57,863 nucleotides of DNA from the NCBI GenBank assembly GCA_030141605.1, contig JAQGDQ010001166.1:1-57863 (forward strand), written 5' to 3'. Made by a program: the position numbers and the translations under genes. Positions 6,779 through 53,176 of the stretch are shown one piece after another; position 1 is the stretch's first letter, and the number at the start of each line of letters is the position of its first letter. Origin of the DNA: Tubiluchus corallicola. Lineage: Eukaryota; Priapulida; Priapulimorpha; Priapulimorphida; Tubiluchidae. The notes beneath the pieces are model-generated. The model was given only the letters and a program-made list of their open reading frames with translations. It had not been told where the DNA came from and searched no databases.

Positions 6779-7241
6779 TTAACCCTTTCATACCCGTTGT
6801 ATCCTATGGGATACGAGAATATTTTCTGCCTTTAAAATTAATAAAATTTTAAAACTGACAGTTATTTGATCTGTTAATAGTTATTTTGATTTAAGCCAAT
6901 AACAATAGTCTAAAAATAGCGATAAAATGGCGAACCAGAAAATCTACATAGCATAAAAAACTGTGCAAGGTACAGTACTTTAGAGACGACTTTGTACAGA
7001 TCAGCATTGCATGCATACTAAATGTCTTAAATACTTTAAAAAATTATCAGCAGTTGCAAAATGAAGCATATTTTATGCTTCCATTGAATCCCAATGTATC
7101 CCGTGGGATACAGGCTATATTTAGCACGCGGGCACAGGTAGAAAAAATAATTATGTGTAAACAAGATGGACATACTGAACAAAAGTACCAAGCCAAACAT
7201 TTTTTTCTTATTAAAAAATAATTTGGGGCTGAAAGGGTTAA
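6779..7241. mobile_element. piggyBac-like MITE (463 bp) next to the receptor exon
   Basis: The element is bounded by TTAA on both sides (6779-6782 and 7238-7241). Its ends are inverted repeats, TTAACCCTTTCAtaCCCG on the left and the reverse complement of a right end beginning TTAACCCTTTCAGCCCC. TTAA plus CCCTTT is the hallmark of piggyBac-type termini. There is no transposase. Internally the motif 'tatccyrtgggatac' occurs twice (about 6800 and 7097). It lies only 41 bp upstream of the receptor exon at 7283. Confidence 0.7.
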
Positions 7242-7282
7242 TGTGCACAAATCCTTCATATTGTTTTTTATATTGTTTACAG

Positions 7283-7971
7283 GTATTTCAGTCTGCGCTA
7301 GTATCTTTACCTTGACGATGATGGCGTTTGATCGCTATCTAGCCATCCGGCACCCGCTTACCGTCCGGAAGATATTGGGGAAACGTACCATTCTTCGTAT
7401 CATCATCATCATCTGGATCATCGCCCTGGTGTTTACGTCACCCATTCTCGTCGTCCAGGAAGTTACCGTACATGAAATACATCCAAACTTCAAGATGCAG
7501 TTTTGCTACGAAATGTGGGACGTTAAATACAGGCGAGCATACAGTCTGTTCTTGACGATATGCGTTTATTTGATACCAGGGAGCGCTGTAGTTGCCGCTT
7601 ACGTGCTCATGAGCTGCACGCTTTACCGCATGGAGGTGATACATCGGGAGAGTGTGGACCCCTTTGTGGACAGACTGGTGTTGCAGAGACGGAAGCTGGC
7701 GCGTGTGCTCATAGTACTTTCTGTGATGTTTGCTGTTTGTTGGCTGCCTTATCACATCATCCAATTGTCATTAGAATTTGGGTGTGACGTATACAATGAA
7801 CAACTCCAAAAGTACAGTGCAGCATTGCCGTTTGCATTGTTCATTGCTCATGCCAATAGTGCCATCAACCCGGTGCTGTACTGCACGCTAAATGCAACAT
7901 TCCGACAGTCAGTGGCAAAACAGTTCCATTGTGCCAGAACAGAGGCTCCAAACTCAGATGTAACGCAAAAG
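7283..7971 (+). CDS. Rhodopsin-class peptide-type GPCR, exon covering TM3 to the C-tail
   Basis: This exon encodes transmembrane helices 3-7 of a class A G-protein-coupled receptor. Visible hallmarks are a TM3 segment 'SIFTLTMMAFDRYLAIRHPL' with the DRY triad (7330-7338), the TM4 Trp, an extracellular Cys before TM5 ('FCYEMW'), a TM6 CWLPYH motif (7738-7755), a TM7 NPVLY motif (7867-7881) and a Cys-containing juxtamembrane tail. It starts at an acceptor after 'tattgtttacag'; a second in-frame acceptor lies 9 bases downstream (after 'tttcag', exon from 7292). It ends at the donor AAG|GTTAGT in phase 0 and continues at 16697. TM1-TM2 exons are not in the window. The DRYLAIRHP stretch and the short third loop resemble neuropeptide receptors of the galanin/opioid/QRFP/orexin type, but the ligand cannot be assigned. 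Reading through the donor would add only eight residues. Confidence 0.9.
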
Positions 7972-9055
7972 GTTAGTTATATTCTGCACAACTACTAAAC
8001 ATTTACATAGATACACAAAGAATAACAGTGTCTACATTGCATAACTATAATATAGACACGTAAATAGGATACACGGATACACGTAAGGATACACGGAGTA
8101 TACAGAGCTATTTAGATGCACAGAGGATGCATTGAGGATAACAGTGTACACAACTATTTAAACACGCATGTGTTAACAGTGCACACACTTGTGATACAAA
8201 GGACCTATTAAACATGAACCTACCATGTTCTTTTTTAAACCTTTTCCTACGTAAATTTTGTAACCTTTTCTTTTGTAACACCCTGTACATTTCAGGAAAA
8301 CTGTGCTGAGGCACTTTCGGGGTTTATCTATACGTTTAGTGTAGCTAGGCTTGTATAATAGCTAAGGTCTACGTAAAATGCGTAAACAGACTTTAACAAA
8401 GTGTAAAATGAACATAGCTCGTGTTGAAAATAACGTTTCCTTGACATTTTATAAACTACCTAGACATTGTGTGGAATGCACAAAATGACTTATCAATTAC
8501 TAAATTAATCAAGAAGTTTAACTAAGCTGGTAAGTTCATTGTTTTATTGACAACGGATGCAACAAGAGCATTTCTGAACCACTTTCCATGCCTTCAGAAA
8601 AGGGTGGAACAACGAATGGGAGTCTTTAACAGCAAAGATTTGAACCCAAGAGTGAATCTCATGGTTTATGAAGTTGTCGTCATCATAGCCTTGCTCTGAA
8701 CCGCGAAACGTGGATTTTCCGTTATCCTGGTATCAAAAAGCTTGAACAATTTCGTCGCAAAATCTTCCCTTCATCATGAACATCAAATACAACTAATCTT
8801 TTTTGGTCACAAAATGTCGTAATAATGCAGGAGACGTCCTCATCAAATTCTCTTCACGTAAATCGCAACAGACAAAAGACCGTCATGGCGCCATCTTTGT
8901 TGTTACAAGATATCTCTAGCATGTTACAAAGACCAACTGAAACCCACTCTCAACATATTTCACCAATAATTCTTACTTGAGTAATAATGCTACGAATAAT
9001 TATTACGTTTATACTTCTAGCCGTCATGAAGACTGTGTGTATCACCCAGGTGAAG
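7972..9055. other. First part of the receptor intron; nothing coding supported
   Basis: AT-rich intronic DNA. On the minus strand, 8726-8544 holds a 60-codon open stretch ('DNGKSTFRGSEQGYDDDNFI' near its beginning, 'WVQIFAVKDSHSLF' in the middle) preceded by an AG acceptor-like sequence. No family is recognised, and it could be chance or a decayed gene fragment. Confidence 0.4.
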
Positions 9056-27124: not shown

Positions 27125-28270
27125 GTAACTGTATATTTTAGGTGCTGCCATCTATTGATTAGTCACTTTAACATTTTACTAGTTAAATTCACCCCGAGTA
27201 CAATTGTTCGGTCCAGTGAATATGCAAACTCACTGGATCTCCCCTATTTTTACTGTATGGGATATGTGAAGCCAAGTTTGTGCATAATTCTCTACCTATA
27301 TAAACTGGCTAGATTTCACTTCTAGCCACTGTCTAATTCTTCGTGATCAGTGCAGGACACTCTGGTCCTCAGTGTAGTTTAACAGTCATGTTACATATAT
27401 CTATGTAGTGTAATAAAAGTATTTCAGTTTTTATGCAAACATGTAGTATAGTGTTTAGTTGTTTTCTACAAGTGTTCAGTTCAACTTCATAAACTAACTT
27501 TCACACCGTTATTTCGCAATAGCACCAACATTAAAAGTGATCCAGAGGTGACCTAGGGTTCTGTGTTTGGCAACTCTTTTATCATTCTTTTATCATCCAT
27601 CATGCATGTGAATAACTCTTTTATCATTCTTTTATCATCTATCATGCATGTGAATAATTCGCTGAGCAGTTCCTTCAACCAATCGGATAATTTACCAAGC
27701 TCTGTGATCAGAGTTAAACAGGTAATAATTATTGACCTGTGTGGAAATTGTAACTGTATATTTTTAGGTGCTGCCATCTATGAACTAATCCTTTTACATT
27801 TTACTAGCGAAACTCACCCCTGGTATAATTGTACGGTCCAGTGAATGCATATTCACTGCATCTCTCCCTATTTTACAGTGATGGTTTTTGTGAAGCCAAG
27901 TTTGCATAATCACCTATACCTGTATATCACCTATACCTATATATACTGACTGGATTTACTTTCTAGTCACTGTCTCACTCTCAATGCAGTGCAGCAGTCG
28001 TGCTATTCATAGTACTCACTGTCTCACTCTCAGTACAGTGCAGTGCAGCAGTCGTGCTATTCATGTTACTGTCTAACTCTCAGTGTTCAGTCTAATAAAC
28101 GCTTTTCAGTTTTGTGCAAATATCTAGTATAGTTGTTTATTCTTTTTCTACAAAGTGATTCATCTACAACCTCAAAAATGACTTTCACAATCTGGTTGTT
28201 TGTTAAGGTTTTGTGCAAATATCTAGTATAGTTGTTTATTCTTTTTCTACAAAGTGATTCATCTACAACC
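27125..28270 (+). repeat. Two related LTR-like units in tandem
   Basis: The segments at about 27125-27510 and 27745-28190 share, in order, 'tgtaactgtatattttaggt', 'gctgccatct', 'ggtccagtgaat', a TATA-like 'ctatataaactgg' / 'tatatatactgac', 'ctgtctaactctcagtg' and 'taataaa'. They end in a 'ttctacaa' block. The promoter-then-poly(A) order is LTR-like. The second copy has its own internal direct duplication (28120-28190 and 28210-28280). No retroviral-type genes lie between them. They sit just upstream of the peptide gene's first exon and might supply its promoter. Confidence 0.5.
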
Positions 28271-28465
28271 TCAAAAGTGACTTCACCAAAAGTTCATCAG
28301 AATCGCCGAGAGAATTTTAGTGTGCCGGAGTTAGACAGGTACTTCATGGGTCACGGGGCAATGTACCGGTTGAATGCCTTGGGCCTGCAGTTCACACCTC
28401 ACACTTAGTAACTCACAAAAAGGCTAATGAATTTTATTATAGGCTAATGAATTTTATTATTTTAG

Positions 28466-28541
28466 ATTAAGTTTAAATTTTGAAGAACTCTCTGAGAGAA
28501 TGGAATACAAAATATATTTCGCGCTGTTCTTGCTGCAACTC
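28466..28541 (+). CDS. Signal-peptide exon of a small secreted peptide gene (shared exon 1)
   Basis: The ATG at 28500 is in good initiation context (A at -3, G at +4). It opens 14 codons, 'MEYKIYFALFLLQL', ending at the strong donor CTC|GTAAGT (28541/28542) in phase 0. Charged start plus hydrophobic stretch is the first half of a signal peptide. All seven downstream modules begin with the second half (e.g. VFLLAQA or a variant). A pyrimidine-rich acceptor 'attttattattttag' at 28451-28465 suggests that a non-coding upstream exon is spliced on at 28466. Coding begins at 28500. No second copy of this exon was found in the duplicated units downstream. Confidence 0.7.
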
Positions 28542-28792
28542 GTAAGTACAATTCCATTGGTATATTTCTATTTTTTTATTTTAGTGCATTACAGTATTAT
28601 GATTTTTGTAAAAATCAAAATGCTCTTTCCCTGCAATTTTTTTGTTTTCAAATGGAAAACCAAACAAAGCCATTGGTATTATTTTTTTAACCGAGTTCCA
28701 AAAATGATATCACAGCATTTTCAAAAATATTAACATTTACTGAATTTATTCTCGAAATTGGCTCCTTTCTGGTACTTTGCAATTGAGACTTG

Positions 28793-28893
28793 TTCCCATC
28801 ATAGCTCAGGGTCACTGCATATGCTTGGAAACCGAAATTAAGCAACACTGAGCCTGGTTTGTAAACCGACGAGCAACTACCAAGGAAACTATG
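28793..28893 (+). pseudogene. 5S rRNA-derived pseudogene or 5S-type SINE head
   Basis: 'accgaaattaagcaac', 'gagcctggttt' and the following 'gtaaaccgacgagcaactac' line up in order and spacing with the second half of metazoan 5S rRNA (ACCGAAGTTAAGCAAC..GAGCCTGGTT.GTA..). The first half (from 'cccatcatagctcagg') is more diverged. It is about 15 bases shorter than a full 5S gene and carries many substitutions, so it is not functional. It lies in the intron between the signal exon and the first peptide module. Confidence 0.65.
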
Positions 28894-29202
28894 TCTGGAA
28901 AGTTAAATTTGCAACACGAATATTTATTTCGTCGAGCAAGAATGGGTTTTTAAACGTGGCTAAGACACTTCTGTTGGTTCAGTATCTCATTACTTGCACT
29001 CAAGGTAGGTAGAACTGACTTGGTCCAAGTCAAAACTAAAACTTGTGGGGTCATGAATGGGTCTTGTTCACTTTCGGAATGTTTTTCTACGTATGTATGA
29101 TTGATATTAGCACAAATTGTCCTTTTTTAAAAAATTGTTTAGGTGATTAAAATTTCGACAAATTTATGACGTAATTAGTAGAGCCAATGACGTTCCTTCT
29201 AG

Positions 29203-29292
29203 CTTTTTGTTGTTGCACAGGCAGGGTTTTCATGGGACGACTGTTTTCTCGATTTAGATCGTCGAATTTATGAAACTGAGAAAGAAGTATGA
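29203..29292 (+). CDS. Secreted peptide module A (alternative last exon 1)
   Basis: It follows the acceptor 'cgttccttctag' (29191-29202). From there phase-0 codons read 'LFVVAQA', then 'GFSWDDCFLDLDRRIYETEK', and stop at TGA 29290-29292. With exon 1 the product is 43 residues: a 21-residue signal peptide ending AQA and a 22-residue mature peptide. It is the most diverged intact member, with an extra Cys and no C-terminal Tyr run. Its downstream flank is homologous to those of the other modules, but the conserved AATAAA site reads AATACG (29494-29499), so this copy may terminate elsewhere or be losing function. Confidence 0.6.
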   Translation, partial: LFVVAQAGFSWDDCFLDLDRRIYETEKEV

Positions 29293-31971
29293 TTAAATGG
29301 GAGTGAATCAACATTAATAATTTTTATGACAATTTTAAATCAACCTGGATTATAATTTGGAATGTCTTGTTGATTTTTGTAAAATTTATAAATATCCTTC
29401 AATTATATTTTTGTGTGCACATTAAGCAAATTTTGTCAAGCAAACATTAAGTACAATGACGTTCCAGTTAATGAAGTATTAGGGATGAATTTGAATACGT
29501 AAATCTAATTTAGATGAACATGATTAATTTTTTACATTATAAACATAGAAGAATGGCTTTCTGTATATTAAATGATGATCAAACTTTCAAATTTCTGTAC
29601 CATCGTTGTCATTGTCTGGTCAATATATTGCTGCAACTACTGTACCACTGACATAATCCACAATAGGTAGGACACAAGAATGAGTTTCTTCAAAATTTTC
29701 ATCATCTTTTCGTTTTACTGATCGCCACATCTTGCACACTTTGACATACAGTGGGGGATTTAAGGGTGGCTCCTCAGTGGGGGATTTAAGGGTGGGCCTT
29801 AAATAGTAGCAGTTACAGCACACCAAGTGAATATTTTCTCTGGATTATAAGCTTTAGAACGTTTAGTGGTAGCTTTTATCGAGCAAAAAGTTCCGCATTA
29901 ATGATTTCAGTGTAAAAACGTTTGTGCCCTTTAAGTGATAATTGAAGTTTTTGGCAAAGATGTCGTTGTGCGCAATTATATGCTGTACCAGCGTGTATAC
30001 TAGTATACTGGTGTGTAATTAAGAGTCAAAAGTTTGAGGTGACATAATGAGTTTTAAACTATTGAATTTGCTTGAGGAAATAATAAGAAAAATGGTCTAA
30101 AATGCAGTAAAGTGTATTGCTAGCCGGGGTTCCCCAGACTCCCTAGCTGCTTTTTCATTGGGCCCACCCTTTTTCTAAGGCCTGTATCCGCCGCTGACAT
30201 ATGTATGTAGAATTGGAAGATAAAGTATGATTGGTATGTATACGTACCATACAAGCAAGTAAGTCATCTACATCGCCATATTCACGGACTTCTGAGAAAT
30301 TATATGCGGTATTAGTTGGCAAACTTCTGTCTCGGAAGACAATGTAGTGTGCGCCAAGAGAGTCAGTTATTGATCACATTGATGGAGCTGCAGTGTCGAC
30401 TGCAGATCCTTGAAGGTCTCCAGGGCGCACACCTGGGCAAGGTGTACGGAGATCCTGAGTTGCCCAGACCGCAGGAACCCCCTCTCTTCCTCCCTGGTGT
30501 AGTCCACAGGAAAGTGGAGCGATACGTTTGGCACCAGGTTGACTGCAGGAGCTGCCGGAGTCAGTGAGCATGCTGCACTGGTCCGCCTTCGGGGCTCCAC
30601 TCCTGATTTGGAAGGTTTACTGCTCTGCACATTGTCGTTGGGTCACTTGACCTCCTTTGACCTCCTTCGCCTTCTAGCCGTTGGCTGCTTTGTGCAGCTC
30701 CTCTGCCTAGTGTCGAGATACAATGTGGGATATGCGGTATTACACGTTTTGTTAGCCAAATTACCCACAACCACGTTTCAGATGGCCCTTGCCGTCGTAG
30801 ATAGTTTGCTTTCCCAACTGTTCTAAATTAAGACATTTGTAGTGAACTACTTAAATAATCCTATTCAAGTTGAGATTGTGATGTCAATGATAAGTTGCAT
30901 CTTAAAGATGTGAATCATAGAAATATATACAGACATCAATTTGTTACGTAATAATAATAGCAATCAAAACCTTATTATGAAGCAAACCTGGATGTTCCCC
31001 TCAGCCACCTATTGTGTAGCAGATGGGAATCTAAAAGGCTTATTTTTGCATTGACTAGTACAGAAAGAAAAAATATATTAAAAAAAGTATATCTTAGAAG
31101 CTGCGAATGACATAACCTAAGTTATGCATTTTGAACGTTAGCAACAACCTGGATGACTAATGCACAGGCAAATAATTTTTCTGCCACATTGTACACACAG
31201 AACAGAAATTATTTAAGCTATCATAAATTTTATCTCGATATATGCATTCAAAATGTATTCACGTTCAAGTGCTACCTAAACTTGCTCCTTAGTGACTAGT
31301 TTACCACTCCAGTTTTATCCCCGAATGTATACTGAGTTATACAAAAAACATTTTAAACGATGAGCATAGTTCATGTGACTTATGGTCACAGGGTCCTGCA
31401 TTGTCTAACGATCATGATATTCTAAGTGTTATCTCAATGTTCTTGGTTCAAATCCAGCCGCAATCCCGATTTTTTAATCATCGCTACATCAGGCACTGTG
31501 TAGAACTAATTCAATTATGATAGTTAAAACACTACCCTAAAATATGAAAACTATAAAAAATCTACTTAGATTTAAAAATTCTTATTGACATCTGTTAGTA
31601 CAATGCTCCAATTTCCAGCACTAATTAAACTGAAACTTATACTTTTCACTAGATGGGTGATGCGAGTTAAGTTAAGGAACCTGAGCCTAGTTAGTAAGCT
31701 TGACCATCAGACAAGCATTTCTGGGCAGTTTCGGCTGCTATATAGCCTCTAACTATTTATCTCAATGAGGGAGATAAATCTGAATGTTTGGCATCTCATC
31801 TTATTATTGATGCAAATCAAATTAGGAATGTTGTCATTCACTAATCAATAAACATTAGGTTTTTAATAGAGTATTACTAGTAAATTACTTATAAACTATA
31901 ATCACACAAAATTTAGCAACCACACTTCTAAGAAAAACATTTGTATAGCTAATGGCTCTTCCTTTTCTTTT
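29293..31971. other. Spacer between peptide modules A and B; GC-rich unknown island
   Basis: 29300-29760 is homologous to the flank downstream of the other modules (shared 'gtcatcttt...gttt' blocks). 30316-30830 is unusually GC-rich for this window, with overlapping frames on both strands (minus 30630-30367 contains 'VSLHFPVDYTREEERGFLRS'). No family is recognised; a decayed transposon or processed gene piece is possible. 30831-31971 is AT-rich. A faint tRNA-like A/B-box pair occurs at about 31400-31465 ('ggttcaaatcc'). Confidence 0.4.
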
Positions 31972-32073
31972 ATGTATTTCTTCTTGCTGCTCATCCGCCA
32001 TTATTTTCCCCCTTCTGATCGCGAAGTTTATAGAACTGACTTTTCCGATAGATTCTATTATTATGAATATTAA
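31972..32073 (+). pseudogene. Peptide module B, decayed copy
   Basis: It aligns with module C across the acceptor region and exon. The AG of the acceptor is replaced (ctttta-tg) and the signal half is out of register with the rest. The conserved half remains open: '(Y)FPPSDREVYRTDFSDRF' and then YYYEY and TAA at 32071-32073. An ATG at 31972 happens to be in frame with it. The lost splice site plus frame disruption make this a probable pseudo-exon. It stands only 350 bp upstream of module C. Confidence 0.65.
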
Positions 32074-32423
32074 AAGGGGCTAGTACCTTTGTCCTTGACA
32101 TCTTATACACGAGCATGACAGTTTTCCCACCAATCCATTCTTGAAAATAAGGGATGAAAACTTTTCCAAACGAATTAAGTTAACTGCTCTTGCTCGTTTT
32201 AAAATTGTTCTTTTTCCAATCATCTTGTACACAAACTTGCACGTGCCCAAACTCGCCAGCATTTAGGCTCCTGCACCTCAAAAGGTTCAGTCTTGGCTCA
32301 GCACCTTATACAGTCGCCCATACAGATTTACGCATTTTGATTTTAAACCTAAATAAAGTTTAGTTACTTAAAATCATGACATTTTTATGAAATAATTAGT
32401 ATAGCGAATGACTCTTCTTGTAG

Positions 32424-32534
32424 GTTTTTCTTCTTGCTCAAGCCGGGTTTCCATATATTGACTACTTTCCGGATTTTGATCGTCGAGTTTATGAAACTGA
32501 TTATTATGAAGAACCATATTACTACGTTATATAA
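32424..32534 (+). CDS. Secreted peptide module C (alternative last exon)
   Basis: The acceptor 'gactcttcttgtag' leads directly to phase-0 codons 'VFLLAQA', then 'GFPYIDYFPDFDRRVYETDY' and 'YEEPYYYVI', with TAA at 32532-32534. Joined to exon 1 this gives 50 residues: a signal peptide ending AQA and a 29-residue, strongly Tyr-rich, acidic mature peptide with one dibasic Arg-Arg. AATAAA lies 224 bp after the stop (32758-32763). No known family was recognised. A secreted structural, adhesive, defence or signalling peptide would all fit. Confidence 0.75.
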   Translation, partial: VFLLAQAGFPYIDYFPDFDRRVYETDYYEEPYYYVI

Positions 32535-33991
32535 ACAAGTCTGGAGAAAGAAGGATGATTAAATGGCAACAAATCAATATTAATGATTTTATGTCAATTT
32601 TAATTCACCTTAACTGTTTCACTAAGTTTTTCTAACTTTTTTAAACGTATATGAATGTATGCTAATTAATTACTAATCATACATTTGGGTACACAAATAA
32701 ACAAGTACGGTCAAGCAAATTTTAAATATAATAGGTGTCTTGTAAGTTTGAACTATGAATAAAATTGATGTCTAATTTGGATGAACAATGAATGATTTCT
32801 TTTACATTATAAATATATGCTTTTAGTAAGTTGGACTGGCTTTACCTTTTTTCTGATTAATCTTCGTTCATTAATATTTGCTGGTGAACAAACGTTCACC
32901 ATGTTGTATCATCAATGTTGTTGTCTGTATCATCATTGCTGTCACTTCGTCCATGACGTCATCAACAATATTTACCCAACAGGTTGATAAAAGACACCAA
33001 TAAATTACATTTTTTGAAGTTTTTTGTCATCTTTAAGTTTCAGTAATCTAGACGTCTAACACACTTTTCAATGTTAAATAGAATTCGTTTATTTTACATT
33101 GTATACATACAATAGATGTAACTAAATCATCAACAATGCAATAATTACAAATAAGAAGTAATATATGCTATTACAAGTTTCAGCACTTTAAACACAGGCA
33201 AGAATGCCGTTTCAGTGAATATAATTAGTTTTTAATCTCGCAAAATACAGATTTAAAAATGGTTTTACGTATATAGGTTGAATTAGCATTCTCATTGTCA
33301 TTGCAATACTTAACTTAACCATCACTGCTGAAGTCACCCTCTGTCACCACATAGGTTTATTAAAAGGCACGAGTAATCATGCTCTCCAAAATATAGCTCC
33401 CATGGTCAAGTGAAAGACAAACAACTTTGATGTAATATGCTAGAGTTTCATTCCAAGTCTGAGAAAAAAATTGTAGCATTTGAACTTAGTCGATCAGAAA
33501 GGAGAACAAAGTGTTGGTGCTACATCATGTGTCAATGGCTTTGTTCACAATAGTGGGCTCAGAAAAAATAGATTCAACAGCAGATTAGAGTAGGTTTGGG
33601 AACAATCTGTTCTGGAGAAAAAGGCGACAAAAACATTGGCTTTTGATTTTTTGTTCATCAGCATCACACTTTCTCGCTCAGTCAGTTCTGGGGTATAAAG
33701 AATGGGAATTGCCCCAAATAGGATAATATTACTACAGTTGCTTGTGTTAAACTTTTCAATATTCATTCGTTTTATGCCCAAATTTGCATGTGTCCATATG
33801 TCCAGTATTTAGGCTCGGGCGCCCCACAAATTTTAGTCTTAGCCCTTACACACTCATGCACTGGATTTGTGGGTTTTGGTTTTAAAAGTAACTAATGCTT
33901 AGCTACTTAAGATGATATTTATATATATATATATATATATATTATGATATTTTTGTGAAATAATTAGTATAGTGAATGACTCTTCTTCTAG
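32535..33991. repeat. Module flank, first copy of a 1.56-kb tandem duplication
   Basis: Non-coding spacer between modules C and D. Nearly all of it (about 32640-33990) recurs at about 34200-35550 with few differences. Minus-strand open frames of 78-94 codons (33781-33545 and 35394-35110) are conserved only because the duplication is recent; the older copies near 32080-32260 and 36300-36540 are frame-disrupted. Confidence 0.8.
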
Positions 33992-34102
33992 GTTCTTCTT
34001 GTTGCTCAAGCCGGGTATCCATTTGTTGAGTACTTTCCGGATTTTGATCGTCGAGTTTATGAAACTGTTTATTATGAAGAACCGTATTACTATATTATAT
34101 AA
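33992..34102 (+). CDS. Secreted peptide module D (alternative last exon)
   Basis: The acceptor 'gactcttcttctag' is followed by phase-0 'VLLVAQA', 'GYPFVEYFPDFDRRVYETVY' and 'YEEPYYYII', with stop TAA at 34100-34102. The full product with exon 1 is 50 residues. AATAAA lies 221 bp after the stop (34323-34328). It is nearly identical to module E, differing in the mature peptide by Glu/Asp at its sixth residue. Confidence 0.75.
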   Translation, partial: VLLVAQAGYPFVEYFPDFDRRVYETVYYEEPYYYII

Positions 34103-35550
34103 ATAAGTCTGGCGAAAGAAGGATAATTAAATGGGAACGAATCCATATTAATGATTTTATGTCAATTTTAATTCATCTTAACTGTTTTATTATTTTTCTA
34201 ACTTTTTTAAACGTGTATGAATGTATCTAATTAATTATTAATCATACATTTGGGTACACAAATAAACAAGTACGGTCAAGCAAATTTTAAATATAATAGG
34301 TGTCTTGTAAGTTTGAACTATGAATAAAATTGATGTCTAATTTGGATGAACAATGAATGATTTTTTTACATTATAAATATATGCCTTTAGAAAGTTGGAC
34401 TGGCTTTACCTTTTTTTCTGATTAATCATCGTTCATCAATATTTGCTGGTGAACAAACGTTCACCATGTTGTATCATCAATGTTGTTGTCTGTGTCATCA
34501 TTGCTGTCACTTCGTCCATGACGTCATCAACAATATTTACCCAACAGGTTGATAAAAGACACCAATAAATTACATTTTTTCAAGTTTTTTGTCATCTTTA
34601 AGTTTCAGTAATCTAGACGTCTAACACACTTTTCAATGTTAAATAGAATTCGTTTATTTTACATTGTATACATACAATAGATGTAACTAAATCATCAACA
34701 ATGCAATAATTACAAATAAGAAGTAATATATGCTATTACAAGTTTCAGCACTTTAAACACAGGCAAGAATGCCGTTTCAGTGAATATAATTAGTTTTTAA
34801 TCTCGCAAAATACAGATTTAAAAATGGTTTTACGTATATAGGTTGAATTAGCATTCTCATTGTCATTGCAATACTTAACTTAACCATCACTGCTGAAGTC
34901 ACCCTCTGTCACCACATAGGTTTATTAAAAGGCACGAGTAATCATGCTCTCCAAAATATAGCTCCCATGGTCAAGTGAAAGACAAACAACTTTGATGTAA
35001 TATGCTAGAGTTTCATCCCAAGTCTGAGAAAAAAATTGTAGCATTTGAACTTAGTCGATCAGAAAGGAGAACAAAGTGTTGGTGCTACATCATGTGTCAA
35101 TGGCTTTGTTCACAATAGTGGGCTCAGAAAAAATAGATTCAACAGCAGATTAGAGTAGGTTTGGGAACAATCTGTTCTGGAGAAAAAGGCGACAAAAACA
35201 TTGGCTTTTGATTTTTTGTTCATCAGCATCACACTTTCTCGCTCAGTCAGTTCTGGGGTATAAAGAATGGGAATTGCCCCAAATAGGATAATATTACTAC
35301 AGTTGCTTGTGTCAAACTTTTCAGTATTCATTCGTTTTATGTCCAAATTTGCATGTGTCCAAATGTGCCAGTATTTAGGCTCTGGCCCCCACAAATTTTA
35401 GTCTTAGCCCTTACACAATCATGCACTGGATTTATGGGTTTTGGTTTTAAAAGTAACTAATGCTTAGCTACTTAAGATGATATTTATATATATATATATA
35501 TTATGATATTTTTGTGAAATAATTAGTATAGTGAATGACTCTTCTTCTAG
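34103..35550. repeat. Module flank, second copy of the 1.56-kb tandem duplication
   Basis: Near-identical to 32535-33991, including a short (AT)n just before the next exon (33916-33940 and 35484-35502, of different lengths). No coding capacity is supported. Confidence 0.8.
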
Positions 35551-35661
35551 GTTCTTCTTGTTGCTCAAGCCGGGTATCCATTTGTTGACTACTTTCCGGA
35601 TTTTGATCGTCGAGTTTATGAAACTGTTTATTATGAAGAACCGTATTACTATATTATATAA
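35551..35661 (+). CDS. Secreted peptide module E (alternative last exon)
   Basis: It has the same acceptor as D. Codons read 'VLLVAQA', 'GYPFVDYFPDFDRRVYETVY' and 'YEEPYYYII', with stop at 35659-35661 and AATAAA 220 bp after the stop (35881-35886). It is the product of the most recent unit duplication. Confidence 0.75.
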   Translation, partial: VLLVAQAGYPFVDYFPDFDRRVYETVYYEEPYYYII

Positions 35662-36683
35662 ATAAGTCTGGCGAAAGAAGGATAATTAAATGGGAACGAA
35701 TCCATATTAATGATTTTATGTCAATTTTAATTCATCTTAACTGTTTTATTATTTTTCTAACTTTTTTAAACGTGTATGAATGTATCTAATTAATTATTAA
35801 TCATACATTTGGGTACACAATAAACAGGTACGGTCAAGCAAATTTTAATTACAATAGGTGTCTTGTAAATTTGAACTATGAATAAAATTGATGTGTAAAT
35901 CTAATTTAGATGAGTGATGAATGATTTTTTACATTATGAATATATGCTTTTAGTAAGTTGGACTGGCTTTACCTTATTCAGGTTCAATGTCATTGTTCAA
36001 CATTTTGGATCTTCGTTGTCATTGTTTTTAACATAGGTTATGGCACCATCACCTCTGTTACAGATCGGTGTTTTAACAACATCAGGAATTATGTTCTTGA
36101 AAATGTAGCTCCCTGGGTCAACTGGTAGCAACTTGAGTTTAAAATGCCAGAGCTTCATTTCAAGTCTCGAAAAAATTTGTAGAGTTTCAACTTAGTTTGA
36201 GCAGAAAGGAGGAGAATGATAGAAACTGTTGGTGCTACATCATGTGTCAATGACTCTGTTCATAAGTATCAGTTTAGAAAAAACAGATTCAACAGCAGAT
36301 TAGGGTAGATTTGGGAACAAATTTGTTCTAGAGAAAAAGGGGCAGGAACATTGGCCCTTGACAAGTCGTACATGGGCATCACACTTTCTCTCAGTCATCT
36401 CTGGAGAATAAAAGATGGGAAGTGTCTTCAAAGTGATTAATATATCAGTTCTTGCTCGTGTCATAAATGTTTGTTTCCAACAATTTTTTGACCAAATTTG
36501 ATTGTGTTCAAACATCGGACTAGTTAAGCCCTTGCACCCCACAAGTTTTAGTCTTGGCTCAGCCCCTTATACAATAATGTATTAGATTTGTTTATTTTGG
36601 CTTTAAAACTAACCAAGGTTTAACTAATTAAAATCACCACATTATTATGGAATAATTTGTATAGCTAATGACTCTTCTTCTAG

Positions 36684-36797
36684 GTTTTCCTTCTTGCTCA
36701 AGCCGGGTTTCCATTTACTGGCTACTTTCGAGATTTTGATCGTCGAGTTTATGAAACTGATTATTATGAAGAACCATATTATTACTATATTATATAA
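36684..36797 (+). CDS. Secreted peptide module F (alternative last exon)
   Basis: The acceptor 'gactcttcttctag' is followed by 'VFLLAQA', 'GFPFTGYFRDFDRRVYETDY' and 'YEEPYYYYII', with stop at 36795-36797. It is one codon longer than C-E through an extra Tyr. Its flank holds two successive copies of the downstream segment (about 36880-37020 and 37060-37200), and AATAAA appears in the second (37180-37185), 383 bp after the stop. Confidence 0.75.
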   Translation, partial: VFLLAQAGFPFTGYFRDFDRRVYETDYYEEPYYYYII

Positions 36798-38506
36798 GTA
36801 AGTCTATTGAAATAAGCACGATTAAATGGCAATAAATCAATATAAACGATTTTATGTCAATTTTAATTTGCCTTAACTGTTTTACTGATTACTTTTCACA
36901 TTTCTAAATGTATATTAATGTATGCTAATTAATTACTAATTATGCTTTTGAGTACACATTAAACAGATATGGTCAAGCAAACATTAATTGCAATAGACAT
37001 CATGTAAATGAGACATTCTAATCTCGTGTCTGTCTAATTCGCCTTAGATTCTTTTATTGATTTTTTCCACTTTTTTAATTGTGCATTAAGATGAAAGAAT
37101 TATGTTTTTCGGAACACAGTAATCAAACATTGTCAAACAAAAATTAATTACATCAGGTCTCCTGTAAATGTGAATTCTGAATAAAGTAAATATTTAACTC
37201 TAATTTAGTTGAATGTGATTGATTTTTACATTAGAACTATATGTCTCTAGACAGTTAGATGGCTGTACCTTTTTCTCTCATTCGTCATCAATCAAAAATA
37301 TTTATTAGTGATCAAACCTCCAAAATGTTGTGTCCCCGTATTCACCGTGTTTGTCATTATTGCTGTCACTGCTGAATACTAACGTTGTGCACTATTAACG
37401 CAGGTTAATAAAAAAACTTTAAGAATTATAATTCTCACAATTTTTATCGTCTTTCTCTTTCAATAACCTATACGTCTTGCACTTTTACATAATTATTTAT
37501 ACAGAATTTGACGATGTATACATTCAGCAATAGCAGATAAGAAGTTATATGTGCTCTTAGACGTTTCAATCCCCTAAACACAGACCACAACGCTGCTTAG
37601 ATGAAGATAATTCGTTAAAAATAACATTTCATATTGCAAATATGAGATCATATTTTATGACCTCATAAAATATAGATTTAAGAAAATGGCTTTACATATA
37701 TAGATTGGTATATGTTTCTGTACCATCGTTTTCATTGTCTTTATCACTGTTGCCTTTGTCATCACTACTGAAGTATCGTATATTATCACGTAGGTAGATT
37801 AAAAACACGATTAATTATATTCTTCAAAAATATAACTCCCGTGATCAAATGGTAGAAGAATGGCTACAAGATAATTTATACAAATAGTAATAAAGCAAAA
37901 TAACAATTGTAAAAAGGATTAATGAACCTAGTATTTCTGATAAAATATATGCGCTGTACAATTTCTGTCAAATCAAGATGTAACAATGTAATCTAGAATT
38001 GATTGCAGCTGTAGTGTGTTTAAAAAATGAAGATCATTGCAATTCTAGGCATTCGATACAGTCTCTAGCCATATTAACAATTACCTGTTGGTTTCCTTTC
38101 AAAGCCTTTTCTTCACTGATCTCCTTACCAAAGTATTATATCTATATACTAACTGATAATTACTACAGCTCAACGTATAACATATATGTCGTAAATTAAA
38201 ATGCATTGCTGATTTAACAGTAAACAGAGCTTGTTGTGTCACAAACTTAACAATAGTGTTAATACTTTGTTTACAAAAACGCTTGGCAAACTGTTGACTT
38301 GGATGGATAACATTGGCAATATAAGGTAATATATTAGTGTACTCTCGATATGGGAGGCAGCATAACTTACGCACGGCAATATTCCAGGAAATATCGATAA
38401 AGTTTCAATGACAATTATCACGGTTATACAGTCGCCTATTAGATTGGCTACTTAAAATCAGACATTTTTATGAAATAATTTGTATCGCGAATGACTTTTC
38501 TTCTAG
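36798..38506. other. Spacer between modules F and G
   Basis: Diverged flank sequence homologous to the other units ('caccatg/ccatcgt...tgtcattgtc' blocks at 37320-37380 and 37715-37780). No extra exon copy was found. Confidence 0.5.
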
Positions 38507-38617
38507 GGTTTTCTTGTTGCTCAAGCCGGGTATCTGTGGACGCAGTACTTTCCGGATTTTGATCGTGGAATTTATGAAGCTGATTTTGACGAACACCCAT
38601 ACTACTATATTATATAA
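38507..38617 (+). CDS. Secreted peptide module G (most downstream last exon)
   Basis: The acceptor 'gacttttcttctag' is followed by phase-0 'GFLVAQA', 'GYLWTQYFPDFDRGIYEADF' and 'DEHPYYYII', with stop at 38615-38617. AATAAA is 222 bp after the stop (38839-38844). It keeps the YFPDFDR core and the YYYII end, but the Arg-Arg pair of the others is Arg-Gly here, so dibasic cleavage cannot be a requirement shared by all members. Confidence 0.7.
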   Translation, partial: GFLVAQAGYLWTQYFPDFDRGIYEADFDEHPYYYII

Positions 38618-38839
38618 ACGTACCTCCGAAAAAAACATGATTAAAAGCAACAAATTAATATTAATGATTTATGTGTCAATTTTAATTTACCTTATACTGT
38701 TGTATTGATTTTCTTTAACTTTTCATTCCTATACAACTATGTTAAGGTGCCTTAATTATGTTTACTGTACACATTAACTAAACATTGTCAAGTAAACACA
38801 TATTACAATGCGTCGTGATTTTTAAAATGTGATTTATGA

Positions 38840-39392
38840 ATAAAAGGAAAACTCTGCGATTTTTCATATACTATCCCATTGTCCAGTATTGTGTAAAGAA
38901 GTATACATTTTGACACAATTAATACTGCAAGAGCTATATACTGCTGATAATTAAATAATAGATTAAAATCTTAATTAACAGCAGGCGAGCCCAACTATTG
39001 ATGACATCACAAATTAACATAACTTTCAACATCAAAATCATTCCACGAGCGTGTTGCACGTGTATGTGTGTTGTACTAAAACTAGGCAACTTTTAAGATA
39101 AAAATTCAAATTTCAAATTTACCGCTGTGCTCACGCGTAAGCTGTCGAACGTGTGCAGTTTGTCACAAACTAACACATGTGAACTGAGAGATGTAGCACA
39201 AGTGTTTTGAACAGTGCATTTCCGAATTGGGAAAATATGTAACAGTGAAGAACTAGTGGCGCGAGCGCAAAAATGTGTTTGTGTGGTAATAAATCTTTTA
39301 CGTAAGGAGTTCTTTAAAAAATAGTGTTTTCTTTCAATATTTTAAAGGTTACTTTGACCTACAGATTAACATTGAGCCCAGTTTTGCTTTAA
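38840..39392 (+). mobile_element. TTAA-flanked MITE, copy 4 (left end diverged)
   Basis: Collinear with 43479-44084 from about 38850 to the right terminus at TTAA (39389-39392). The left terminus is lost or diverged. It directly follows the AATAAA of peptide module G. Confidence 0.6.
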
Positions 39393-45089: not shown

Positions 45090-45222
45090 ATTATAAAAGC
45101 AATGTTGATAAAATTAGAAGTTTTTTTAAAAATATAACAAAAGTCTACAGTTATCACTAAAAATTTTAAAACATTAACTTCCCCGACATTATCACTATTT
45201 TTACACATCACAGGCAACTTAC

Positions 45223-46284
45223 CGTGGAGTTAACTCGTGCTGCAGCAAGGGACAGTGTCAGAAATACAAGAGACCCCAAAGAGAAGACCCACACAGCGTC
45301 AATACACTCGGTAAATGTCAGGTCTTTGTTCCCTAAATAACGAAGCAGCTTGTAGACGTTGAAAACAACCGCTGGCATATTGGCGATGTAGTGGACAAAG
45401 ATGATCTTGCTGAGATCTCTGTCCAAAAAGGACACGCATCGACAAAGTGATAGGTGATCTTTCCTGTGTCTTTCCAAGTGGTACGTATGCGGCGAGATTT
45501 CTGCTGTTTTCATGCTTTTTGATACTTTTGCGAATAAAGATCTCATTACGTAGCTTACCGTTGTGAAAAACATAACGTTAAGAAACGCAACCGATGCTTC
45601 GAAAAAAGCAACGACAGCCCAGAAATAAGGTAAGGCGCTAACGAAAGCGTGATTCTGTTTCTGAAGTAGCAGGTCGTCCACACTTCTGTTTTCAGATGCA
45701 GAGTGCATAGTAGCAAGGAAATTGTTCGCTTTGAATAGTTCCATTGTACCGCTTCCCAAAATTGCAAAACAGCCCAGGAAAATGTGCAATTTGGCATGCT
45801 TCGAGAAGCTTTCTTCCTCTTTCTTGTTGAAGTTGCAAACGTGGTTTGGGTCGCCTTGCACGTTTTCGCGCCAAAATTTTAAAAACTGCTTCACTCCAGG
45901 CAGGGGATTAAAGAACAAGATGGCTGCCAACGTTACGGCTTGAATGCTTAATATGGTGTAGACTACAGAAGCAGTAATGCTTTCATATTTTTGATTATTT
46001 TCAAAAAAGAAAACCAAGTATGCGACTTTACACAAAAACATCGCCAACACGAACGAATTGTACACCTTCATACATCGTCTAGCGTGAACAGAATAGCCAC
46101 TTGTTTGCTCTGACAATATGTCAAGATCTGCCAAGATCCCTACCAGATGCAAAGCCCAAAAATATGGCTTCAGCACCTTATGCATCGAACCTACTTCATC
46201 TCGCTTTGCCTTTTCATGCGTTTTGGTGCTTTCCATTCCACTAACTTGAATAGCTTGCACTTTCGGTATCACAACCTTACTCAT
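45223..46284 (-). CDS. Gustatory-receptor-like 7TM protein, exon 1 (354 codons)
   Basis: The frame opens at ATG 46284 (context aaaacATGa) and reaches the donor CCACG|GTAAGT at 45223/45222 in phase 0; read-through would stop after four codons. Hydrophobic helices lie roughly at residues 76-94, 103-125, 166-185, 218-246, 293-313 and 328-350. The piece 'LCRCVSFLDRDLSKIIFVHY' (280-299) corresponds to the L...(V)..LD..(F/L)...I.... element before TM5 of gustatory-type receptors, and the end 'LSLAAARVNST' fits the region before the conserved phase-0 intron. These receptors are inverted-topology ligand-gated channel-like chemoreceptors in insects; in other invertebrates their roles are largely unknown. 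It continues at 43453. The last exon is missing from what I could identify. Confidence 0.8.
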
Positions 46285-46914
46285 GTTTTACGGATCACAT
46301 CTATATGCAATGACTCTCCCGCTGGGTAGTTTCTCAGACAAGACCAGCCTATTAAACGACCTGCACGTATTTAGATGACAGTTCATCTAGTTGTCCTTGT
46401 ACATTAACTCATATATCCATCATACTTTGGCAAACTTGTCCATTAATTCATAGTTTACCGTGTAATCAGTAATAGTGGCGCGATTTTTGTTAGTAGTCAT
46501 GCAACAATGTTATCGCTACATTATTTGTTGTTTGTACAGAAAACACAGAATAACTGAATGTGCTAATAACAATCAAAGTCGCTTTCATCAGTATGATTCC
46601 TGCCATCACGCACAGCATGCTTAACTATTTATCCATAAATGTTATGTCCGCCCGTTGAGTAAAACTAGTGCAATTTATTTTGCTACTAAATTTATGGATG
46701 AACACAGGTATTGTTGTTTATTAAAATTTTGTTTTCCAAACGTTTCATCCACTCACAGCTATGAAAATTTTTCAATCTCTCTAAAATTAATATTAAAATA
46801 TCGATATTATTATAATAATTGTAGAATAAGTTCTGTAACATATACAATTTTTTTCTGATGTTTCGTTTCTTTACAATTGTTTGTCTCTTGTATGCAATAA
46901 ATATATTGTATTGT
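46285..46914. other. 5' flank of the gustatory-receptor-like gene; LINE/SINE-like tail
   Basis: No promoter motif is clear. 46640-46914 ends in 'gcaataaatatattgtattg', which looks like the tail of a retroposon running into the pentanucleotide array. This is a weak inference. Confidence 0.35.
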
Positions 46915-51453: not shown

Positions 51454-52910
51454 ATGAGAGTAATCGTCGTGATACTTGTGATAGTGGTTTCAGTGACGAG
51501 TCGTGAGTATACGCCGAGACAAACCTTCGCTGTTTATGGTACGTCCGTTTACGAAGAGCCGCCATACGAAGAAGCCCCCGTAAAGCCTGGCTTCTACATG
51601 GACGTGCTACCCAACTCTGCAACTTACGATCAACCATCTAGTAACGTGTACGACATACCACAAAGCTACACCAGTTACTCAAAAACTGGTTATCAAGATC
51701 CTCCAAAACCTCAAGGGTCCCTCCCGTCTTATGAACAAGTGCAAAATTACGAAGGACCGCAAACGTCTTATGATCTACAACCTTCTTATGAACAAAGTCA
51801 AGATTACGAAGGACCGCAAACATCTTATGATCTACAACCTTCTTATGAACAAAGTCAAAATTACGAACAGCCGCAAACGTCTTATGATCTACAACCTTCT
51901 TATGAACAAAGTCAAAATTACGAACAGCCGCAAACGTCTTATGATCTACAACCTTCTTACGGACAAAGTCAAAATTACGAACAGCCGCAAACGTCTTATG
52001 ATCTACAACCTTCTTACGGACAAAGTCAAAACTACGGTGATCGACAAACTTCTTACGGGACAGAGTTATCTTACGAGCAACCTCAACATCGGTCGATTTC
52101 CCACACTTATAAAGAACCTAGTTATGAGCCGCAGCAAGAATCTTATGGGATAAATCCCGTCTACAAACAACCCCAGGGTTATCACGAACAACAAAAATCT
52201 TACGTGCTACAAGGCACTTCTTATGAACAGCCCAGAAGACGTCAAGTAAATGTTTACGATAGCAGACCTTATGAGCAAAATTCTGTTCTACAAGATACAA
52301 GTTACGAAGTTGAGCTTGGCTATCAACCAGAAAGACAGACTTACTCAGATTATGACGATAATGCTGTTGATACGTACCAAGTCAAGTACTCAAAATCAAA
52401 ATCACCTTATACAAGGCCGAATTATTCTTATATCAAACCGAAAACTACAACGTACAGCTCTCAAATACATGCGCAAATTCCCCAAGACCTCAAGGCACAA
52501 CAGGCAACGTACTCAATAAAACCAAAGTATCCCCAACGAATTAACTCTGCTGCCAAACCACACTATAACAGTAACAAAGACAAATTTACGTATCCGTTAA
52601 CGCAATCCATTTCCGTCGCCGAAAAAGCAAAATATCCTTTAGCTCAGCAGCGCTCCTCCCCCTCCTCCTCCTCCTCCTCCTCCTCCTCGGGTGGTCACCA
52701 GCTGCCAGAAAAGTATACCAAAACACCGGAATACTTTACAACCACCAGCTATGGACCGATCAGAGTAGGAACCCTCGCCGGAAAAGGACAGAGAAGCAAC
52801 GGTAACAGCTTTCAGCGAAGTGGAAAAGCGAAGGGAAGTCTTTATGCTGTGGACACGGCCACGGCAGCGGAAACGGCTGCAAAACGGAGAGGATATGAAT
52901 ACTATTACAG
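51454..52910 (+). CDS. Secreted Tyr/Gln/Pro/Ser-rich repeat protein, main exon
   Basis: The ATG at 51454 (aaaaATGa) is chosen over the upstream in-frame ATG-like codon at 51367 because it opens a clear signal peptide, 'MRVIVVILVIVVSVTS', and because a 3' splice acceptor (ttatttttgctcag, ending 51418) separates the two. After an N-terminal region there are six 19-residue repeats of the type SYEQSQNYEQPQTSYDLQP (about 51724-52065), then a looser Tyr/Gln/Ser/Lys-rich region, a Ser run (52654-52689) and a basic C-terminal part. The exon ends with the donor AG|GTAAGA (52910/52911), leaving two bases of a codon, and is completed by 56121-56223 to give 519 residues. No Cys-rich or enzymatic domain is present. 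Extracellular matrix, cuticle/shell or adhesive proteins have such composition, but none is recognised by sequence. Confidence 0.85.
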
Positions 52911-53176
52911 GTAAGATTTAATCATGGGTTGAACTCGCGCCAAACAGCAGTTTTCATGGCCTTATTTTCTGCACTACTACCTATAGGAAACCAACCAACT
53001 AATGATAAAGAACAGCAGAATGTGTAATTGAAGGTTTCACAGTTAATGATATTAATGACATCTTCTACTAGCTACTAACAACATAATGAATGTACCAATG
53101 TAAATAGCACTGCTTACCCTATTATATTACATGTAATGCAATCATTGTGTGAATAAGGATGATATGTAGAAGGGAG

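Follow-up and report, generated by a model that had tools for sequence, protein, structure and literature searches.

Conotoxins are encoded by arrays of complete genes with a conserved leader and a variable mature part, whose copies are born and die, and the Drosophila gene lola joins common 5′ exons to many alternative 3′ exons. Both lola and mod(mdg4) encode variants of regulatory proteins with a long shared part, and mod(mdg4) is trans-spliced. In mod(mdg4), too, shared 5′ exons are combined with a choice of many 3′ exons (PMC12692577). The closest arrangement that we encountered is that of the gastropod FMRFamide gene (Lymnaea, Helix, Haliotis), whose first exon is common to alternative transcripts (PMC4208409). 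Here, we analysed a stretch of 57,863 nucleotides from the priapulid Tubiluchus corallicola (assembly GCA_030141605.1, contig JAQGDQ010001166.1, in the following C711), which we refer to as the window. It contains a single short exon encoding half a signal peptide, followed by a tandem array of homologous modules, each encoding the other half together with a small peptide. We consider it probable that this array and its paralogues each constitute one transcription unit with mutually exclusive terminal exons.

The array is headed by exon 1, the ATG of which has an A at position −3 and a G at position +4:

28500-28541, plus strand: coding part of exon 1, n-region and first half of the signal peptide (MEYKIYFALFLLQL)
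28542-28547, plus strand: 5′ splice site GTAAGT in phase 0, identical in all three exon-1 copies found

Six intact modules (A1, B, C, D, E and G) are located downstream on the same strand, starting 661, 3882, 5450, 7009, 8142 and 9965 bases past the exon-1 donor. They follow one layout, in which pyrimidines and an AG precede a phase-0 second half of the signal peptide ending in AQA, a mature peptide of 22-30 residues (22 in A1, then 29, 29, 29, 30 and 29 in B, C, D, E and G) and a stop codon:

29203-29292, plus strand: terminal exon A1, LFVVAQA and a 22-residue peptide with one Cys; counterpart at C1899:3395
32424-32534, plus strand: terminal exon B, VFLLAQA and GFPYIDYFPDFDRRVYETDYYEEPYYYVI; AATAAA at 32758-32763
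33992-34102, plus strand: terminal exon C, VLLVAQA and GYPFVEYFPDFDRRVYETVYYEEPYYYII; AATAAA at 34323-34328
35551-35661, plus strand: terminal exon D, a near copy of C with one residue changed; AATAAA at 35881-35886
36684-36797, plus strand: terminal exon E, VFLLAQA and GFPFTGYFRDFDRRVYETDYYEEPYYYYII; AATAAA at 37180-37185
38507-38617, plus strand: terminal exon G, GFLVAQA and GYLWTQYFPDFDRGIYEADFDEHPYYYII; AATAAA at 38839-38844
31975-32073, plus strand: dead terminal exon A2, found by local search and inspection of the sequence

These coordinates agree with the original prediction, made from the letters of the window, which had placed exon 1 with its phase-0 donor and the six phase-0 acceptors (the first positions of the six intact exons) exactly here, each acceptor followed by AQA, 22-30 residues and a stop. 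Its count of six modules holds for the intact ones, but the seventh, decayed module A2 had been overlooked, and its description of the peptides as Tyr-rich fits five of the six modules, but not A1 with 1 Tyr in 22 residues. Alignments of module B and its flanks to C, D, E and G cover 286-464 columns at 81-93% DNA identity, so that the array cannot be attributed to chance. When exon 1 is joined to a module, the product has a strong hydrophobic core, with a best 12-mer of 2.5-3.1 on the Kyte-Doolittle scale (13 products), compared to 0.9-2.1 for the module alone. In A2 of the window the frame is open, but the acceptor AG has become TG and the upstream AATGAC has become AATGGC; its copies elsewhere carry an early stop (C1899) or a shifted frame (C1884). 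A2 shows what an unused module looks like. Between A1 and A2 lies an insertion at 30312-30729 (plus strand), probably a mobile repeat, which the C1899 array does not have at that place and which matches C1899:27945-28376 at 84%.

The plan is not confined to the window. The 343.5-Mb assembly was searched with a module query, and beyond the window we read all of contig C1899 (43,917 bases) and 40 kb of the 412-kb contig C1884. The module query found at least 22 matching places, six on C711, ten on C1899 and six on C1884. This number is a lower bound, as the search scores best candidates only; the three A2 copies, found by local search alone, are absent from it, indicating that the query misses some modules. 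Intact modules number 17 (six in the window, five in the C1899 plus array, four in the C1899 minus array and two on C1884), each with an acceptor, the same phase and its own stop. In the remaining five matches, the tail has been replaced, the acceptor has been lost, the frame is shifted or interrupted by a stop, or the module is truncated; with the three A2 copies the broken modules amount to eight. In contrast to this multiplicity of modules, the 191-base exon-1 region has only three matches in the genome, one at each array head, in a search that very diverged copies could escape:

window, plus strand: exon 1 as given above
C1899:2588-2781, plus strand: exon-1 region of the C1899 plus array
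C1884:125428-125611, minus strand: exon-1 region of the C1884 array

The counterparts MEYKIYFVLFLLQL and MEYKIIFVLFLLQL head the two other arrays (C1899 plus and C1884), and in all three arrays with an assembled 5′ end a single exon 1 lies 5′ of all modules on the same strand. The earlier statement that there is no second exon 1 holds in the window, with three such places in the whole genome, and the proposal of a single transcription unit gains support from paralogous arrays of the same plan on two further contigs.

Identity between the arrays of the window and C1899 is mostly 83-89%; upstream it ends at about 28336, and downstream it gives way to short, scattered matches after about 1.3 kb. 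With such similar arrays in largely different flanks, the two look like paralogous loci rather than alleles. Types A1, A2, E and G occur in both arrays, so the multi-module plan predates their split, since which exon 1 has stayed single in each. C1899 itself is a near palindrome with one array at either end; its arms, separated by about 2 kb, agree at 95.7% over about 9.9 kb. This contig may be an inverted duplication or two joined alleles; as its plus and minus arrays may be alleles, we count three independent arrays. Could the arrays as a whole be an assembly artefact, or a repeat family built of transposable-element pieces or joined alleles? The palindrome and the frequency of other repeats nearby speak for this, but module and exon-1 queries match three contigs only, and in order, the window and C1899 arrays look paralogous, and old module pairs conserve their coding and splice parts. 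We regard such an artefact as highly improbable.

In the scheme we propose, transcription would begin at or 5′ of exon 1 and the pre-mRNA would extend through the array. The exon-1 donor would then be spliced in cis to one terminal exon, which would complete the signal peptide, encode the peptide up to its stop and be polyadenylated nearby, and use of this exon would rule out the rest; the signal peptide would be cleaved after AQA or its equivalent. From the anatomy, copy numbers and conservation we infer the exon-1 junctions, the exclusive use of terminal exons and the secretion and cleavage of the products. A different scheme would give each module, or several of them, its own promoter and an unlike first exon, or have the modules transcribed apart and trans-spliced to exon 1, as reported for mod(mdg4). 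Alternative 3′ exons of mod(mdg4) have independent promoters (PMC12692577), and the AT-rich stretch from about −60 to −25 that our modules share exceeds the needs of a bare acceptor. However, a scan for first exons (ATG, hydrophobic phase-0 frame and donor) yielded exon 1 and only a few weaker, non-recurring candidates (29960 in the window, 4516 and 6862 on C1899, one on C1884), with no candidate inside the C1899 minus array. Moreover, since the modules lie downstream of exon 1 on its strand, cis-splicing suffices. Separate promoters or trans-splicing therefore appear improbable to us.

A docking/selector control like that of Dscam, in which intron 1 would pair with an element at each module, was tested as well and dropped, as the signal was not consistent across 13 modules: relative to mononucleotide shuffles, pairing was about 4 standard deviations better for PE and about 2 for PB (in module labels, P denotes the C1899 copy and W the window), and within 1.5 standard deviations or worse for the others.

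Old module pairs have retained the coding part and the acceptor, while the intron has become randomised. In the old window pairs B-G and E-G, the intron stretch from −500 to −61 is 45% identical, compared to 88-92% for −60 to −1, 79-80% for the coding part and 64-65% for the 3′ region. Over all 13 pairs compared, the intron stretches hold 65 indels and the 3′ regions 29, whereas the coding part has four, all of them whole codons in the codon alignment; in nine of these pairs, coding identity exceeds that of the intron stretch. For the 17 intact modules, a codon tree gave an omega of 0.437 (log-likelihood −645.9); setting omega to 1 on the same tree, with kappa fixed at 2.0, gave −651.2, a cost of 5.4 log units, although gene conversion between modules could distort the identity, dN/dS and omega figures alike.

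The conserved acceptor block is exemplified by the region before module B:

32361-32423, plus strand: conserved acceptor block with an AT-rich stretch (about −60 to −25, common to the modules), AATGAC, pyrimidines and AG

AATGAC, which is likely the branch site, occurs in 17 of 17 intact modules and is missing from five of the seven dead modules examined, a count that leaves out the eighth, truncated one. The final AG is likewise present in all 17 intact modules, but here AG and an open frame were selection criteria. In the 3′ regions of B, C, D and G, the distance from the stop to AATAAA is 224, 221, 220 and 222 bases, respectively, and in E it is 383 bases, in agreement with the original prediction. 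A 160-bp repeat (family D6) lies inside the 3′ region of E, and its insertion would explain the larger distance (383 − 160 = 223). This constant position follows from the common descent of the modules. In total, AATAAA is found within 450 bases in 13 of the 17 intact modules, and with 0.7 occurrences expected by chance per 450 bases its presence as such is weak evidence. As for the claim that each module has its own poly(A) site, AATAAA is present in the other five modules of the window, but A1 gives the claim no support: it lacks the motif within 450 bases both in the window and on C1899; in the window, an ATTAAA follows 275 bases on, at 29567.

Several observations weigh against exclusive use of many terminal exons behind one exon 1. 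For the four intact modules of the C1899 minus array, which starts 1.03 kb from the contig end and has its 5′ end off the contig, no exon 1 was found in the assembly. The exon end CTC (CTG on C1899) before the donor is a poor match to CAG, and four modules (WA1, PA1, MG and QB2) lack AATAAA within 450 bases. Identity of the intron stretch exceeds coding identity in three of the 13 pairs (WB-PB, WG-PG and PC-MC2) and equals it in PE-ME; in WB-WC, the coding part is surpassed by the 3′ region. Recent pairs, finally, appear to be under little constraint, with dN/dS of 1.21 (WB-PB), 2.08 (WG-PG), 1.01 (PC-MC2) and 2.18 (PB-MB), values which rest on few changes; recent pairs of E exons gave 0.24-0.25.

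The last point leads to the alternative that only one module per array is used, for instance A1 as the nearest, and that the rest are decaying duplicate exons. Dead modules do exist (five of the 22 matches and the three A2 copies), several recent pairs have dN/dS near or above 1, and on C1884 the two intact modules stand among broken ones and encode an identical product. Decay of all modules but one is nevertheless difficult to reconcile with six of seven modules being intact in the window and five of six in the C1899 plus array, with an omega of 0.44 over 17 modules, and with old pairs that preserve coding part and acceptor, but not intron. In a neutral simulation starting from module B (substitutions only), both lineages of a pair remained open in 3.4% of runs at a pair distance of 0.49, which is close to the distance seen in the old 3′ regions. 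Use of a single module per array is thus unlikely in our view, and mutually exclusive use of several terminal exons remains the reading that we prefer.

The region 5′ of exon 1 is conserved as well:

28395-28499, plus strand: conserved block just 5′ of the ATG, from the alignment of the window, C1899 and C1884 copies

This block may hold a 5′UTR intron or a promoter. An acceptor-like TTTTAG at 28460-28465 is kept in all three exon-1 copies, which suggests that a 5′UTR exon may precede exon 1. Further upstream, 27629-27719 (plus strand) shares 80% identity with a stretch 5′ of the C1884 exon 1, while the remaining upstream matches listed reach 68-69%; it is a possible candidate for a 5′ exon or promoter. 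Within intron 1, 28800-28900 (plus strand) resembles by eye what we take to be a 5S rRNA-derived repeat; Rfam at gathering thresholds gave no match there or elsewhere in the window.

The predicted mature peptides of the arrays comprise 22-31 residues, are acidic (pI 4.05-4.5) and mostly Tyr-rich, and share a plan in which the N-terminal stretch varies and the core YFPDFDR..YE is constant. Variation peaks at about module positions 8-13, just past the predicted cleavage site, and F15, D17 and E25 are invariant in all 17 modules. As a guess, they might be secreted cues, or surface or adhesive peptides with sulphated or oxidised Tyr: a variable N-terminus on a fixed core would suit a family of cues or surface peptides, and acidic peptides with Tyr beside Asp or Glu would suit Tyr sulphation or oxidation. 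No described family had been recognised initially, and our searches gave no sequence relative either. The product of exon 1 and B, the sole array product scanned, matched no Pfam family at E up to 1. In an animal-protein database, in which small two-exon genes are easily missed, a single-sequence search gave no candidate, and all 22 candidates of an alignment search had E above 10.

Three neighbours in the window are recorded for completeness. A second Tyr-rich, secreted-looking product lies 13 kb from the array (51454-52914, plus strand); it has 486 residues (13% Tyr, 13% Ser, 12% Gln), contains about six repeats of 19 residues such as SYDLQPSYEQSQNYEQPQT and gave no Pfam match. At 7222-7998 (plus strand) a peptide G protein-coupled receptor is encoded (7tm_1, E 2.7e-36), with 22 matches at 29-40% identity, several named from molluscs and others from insects and a coral; named relatives include mollusc QRFP-like and neuropeptide FF receptors at 35-36%. 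The minus strand encodes a gustatory-receptor-like protein at 45208-46287 (Pfam Trehalose_recp, E 2.2e-7). In further searches, the Lottia NPF peptide given in PMC4208409 matched two places at 70% and 67%, which taken alone would suggest a lophotrochozoan other than Lottia; a repeat peptide modelled on a Lottia gigantea shell study (PMC3374290) had no match, and a haemocyanin search was empty, as it was in its 14 control genomes.

Why should a genome keep such arrays? We tentatively suggest, as a possibility we hold with clearly less confidence than the exon structure itself, that the array diversifies secreted peptides: one promoter and half a leader would feed a bank of terminal exons, in which the unit of birth is the exon and not the gene, growth, copying and death proceed by unequal exchange, and one peptide is made per cell or tissue at a time. 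If the proposed structure is true, a peptide family expands by last-exon duplication behind a single leader exon, and the copy to be expressed is chosen through splicing and polyadenylation rather than by promoters of its own. Such a locus could easily be annotated by gene finders as one small gene or missed altogether, because its products have only 43-52 residues and their signal peptides are interrupted by the intron. As intact and dead copies lie next to each other, it would also offer a compact system for studying how one terminal exon is chosen out of six.

Compared to the FMRFamide gene, which has two transcripts encoding multi-peptide precursors, the array comprises a tandem of as many as six homologous terminal exons with one peptide each, and, unlike there, its intron splits the signal peptide itself. 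We claim no relation in sequence: the C-terminal RFG used for amidation is absent from all 17 peptides, and, of the dibasic sites, RR is missing in five of 13 products. In contrast to lola and mod(mdg4), the variable exon holds nearly the whole product. Conotoxin copies are full genes that each have a signal peptide of their own, whereas the leader of the array is not duplicated along with its copies. In the literature searched, mostly outside subscription journals, we recognised no array of homologous terminal exons for secreted peptides. Alternative last exons as a kind are known; here they would form a tandem set of complete peptides that have half a signal peptide in common.

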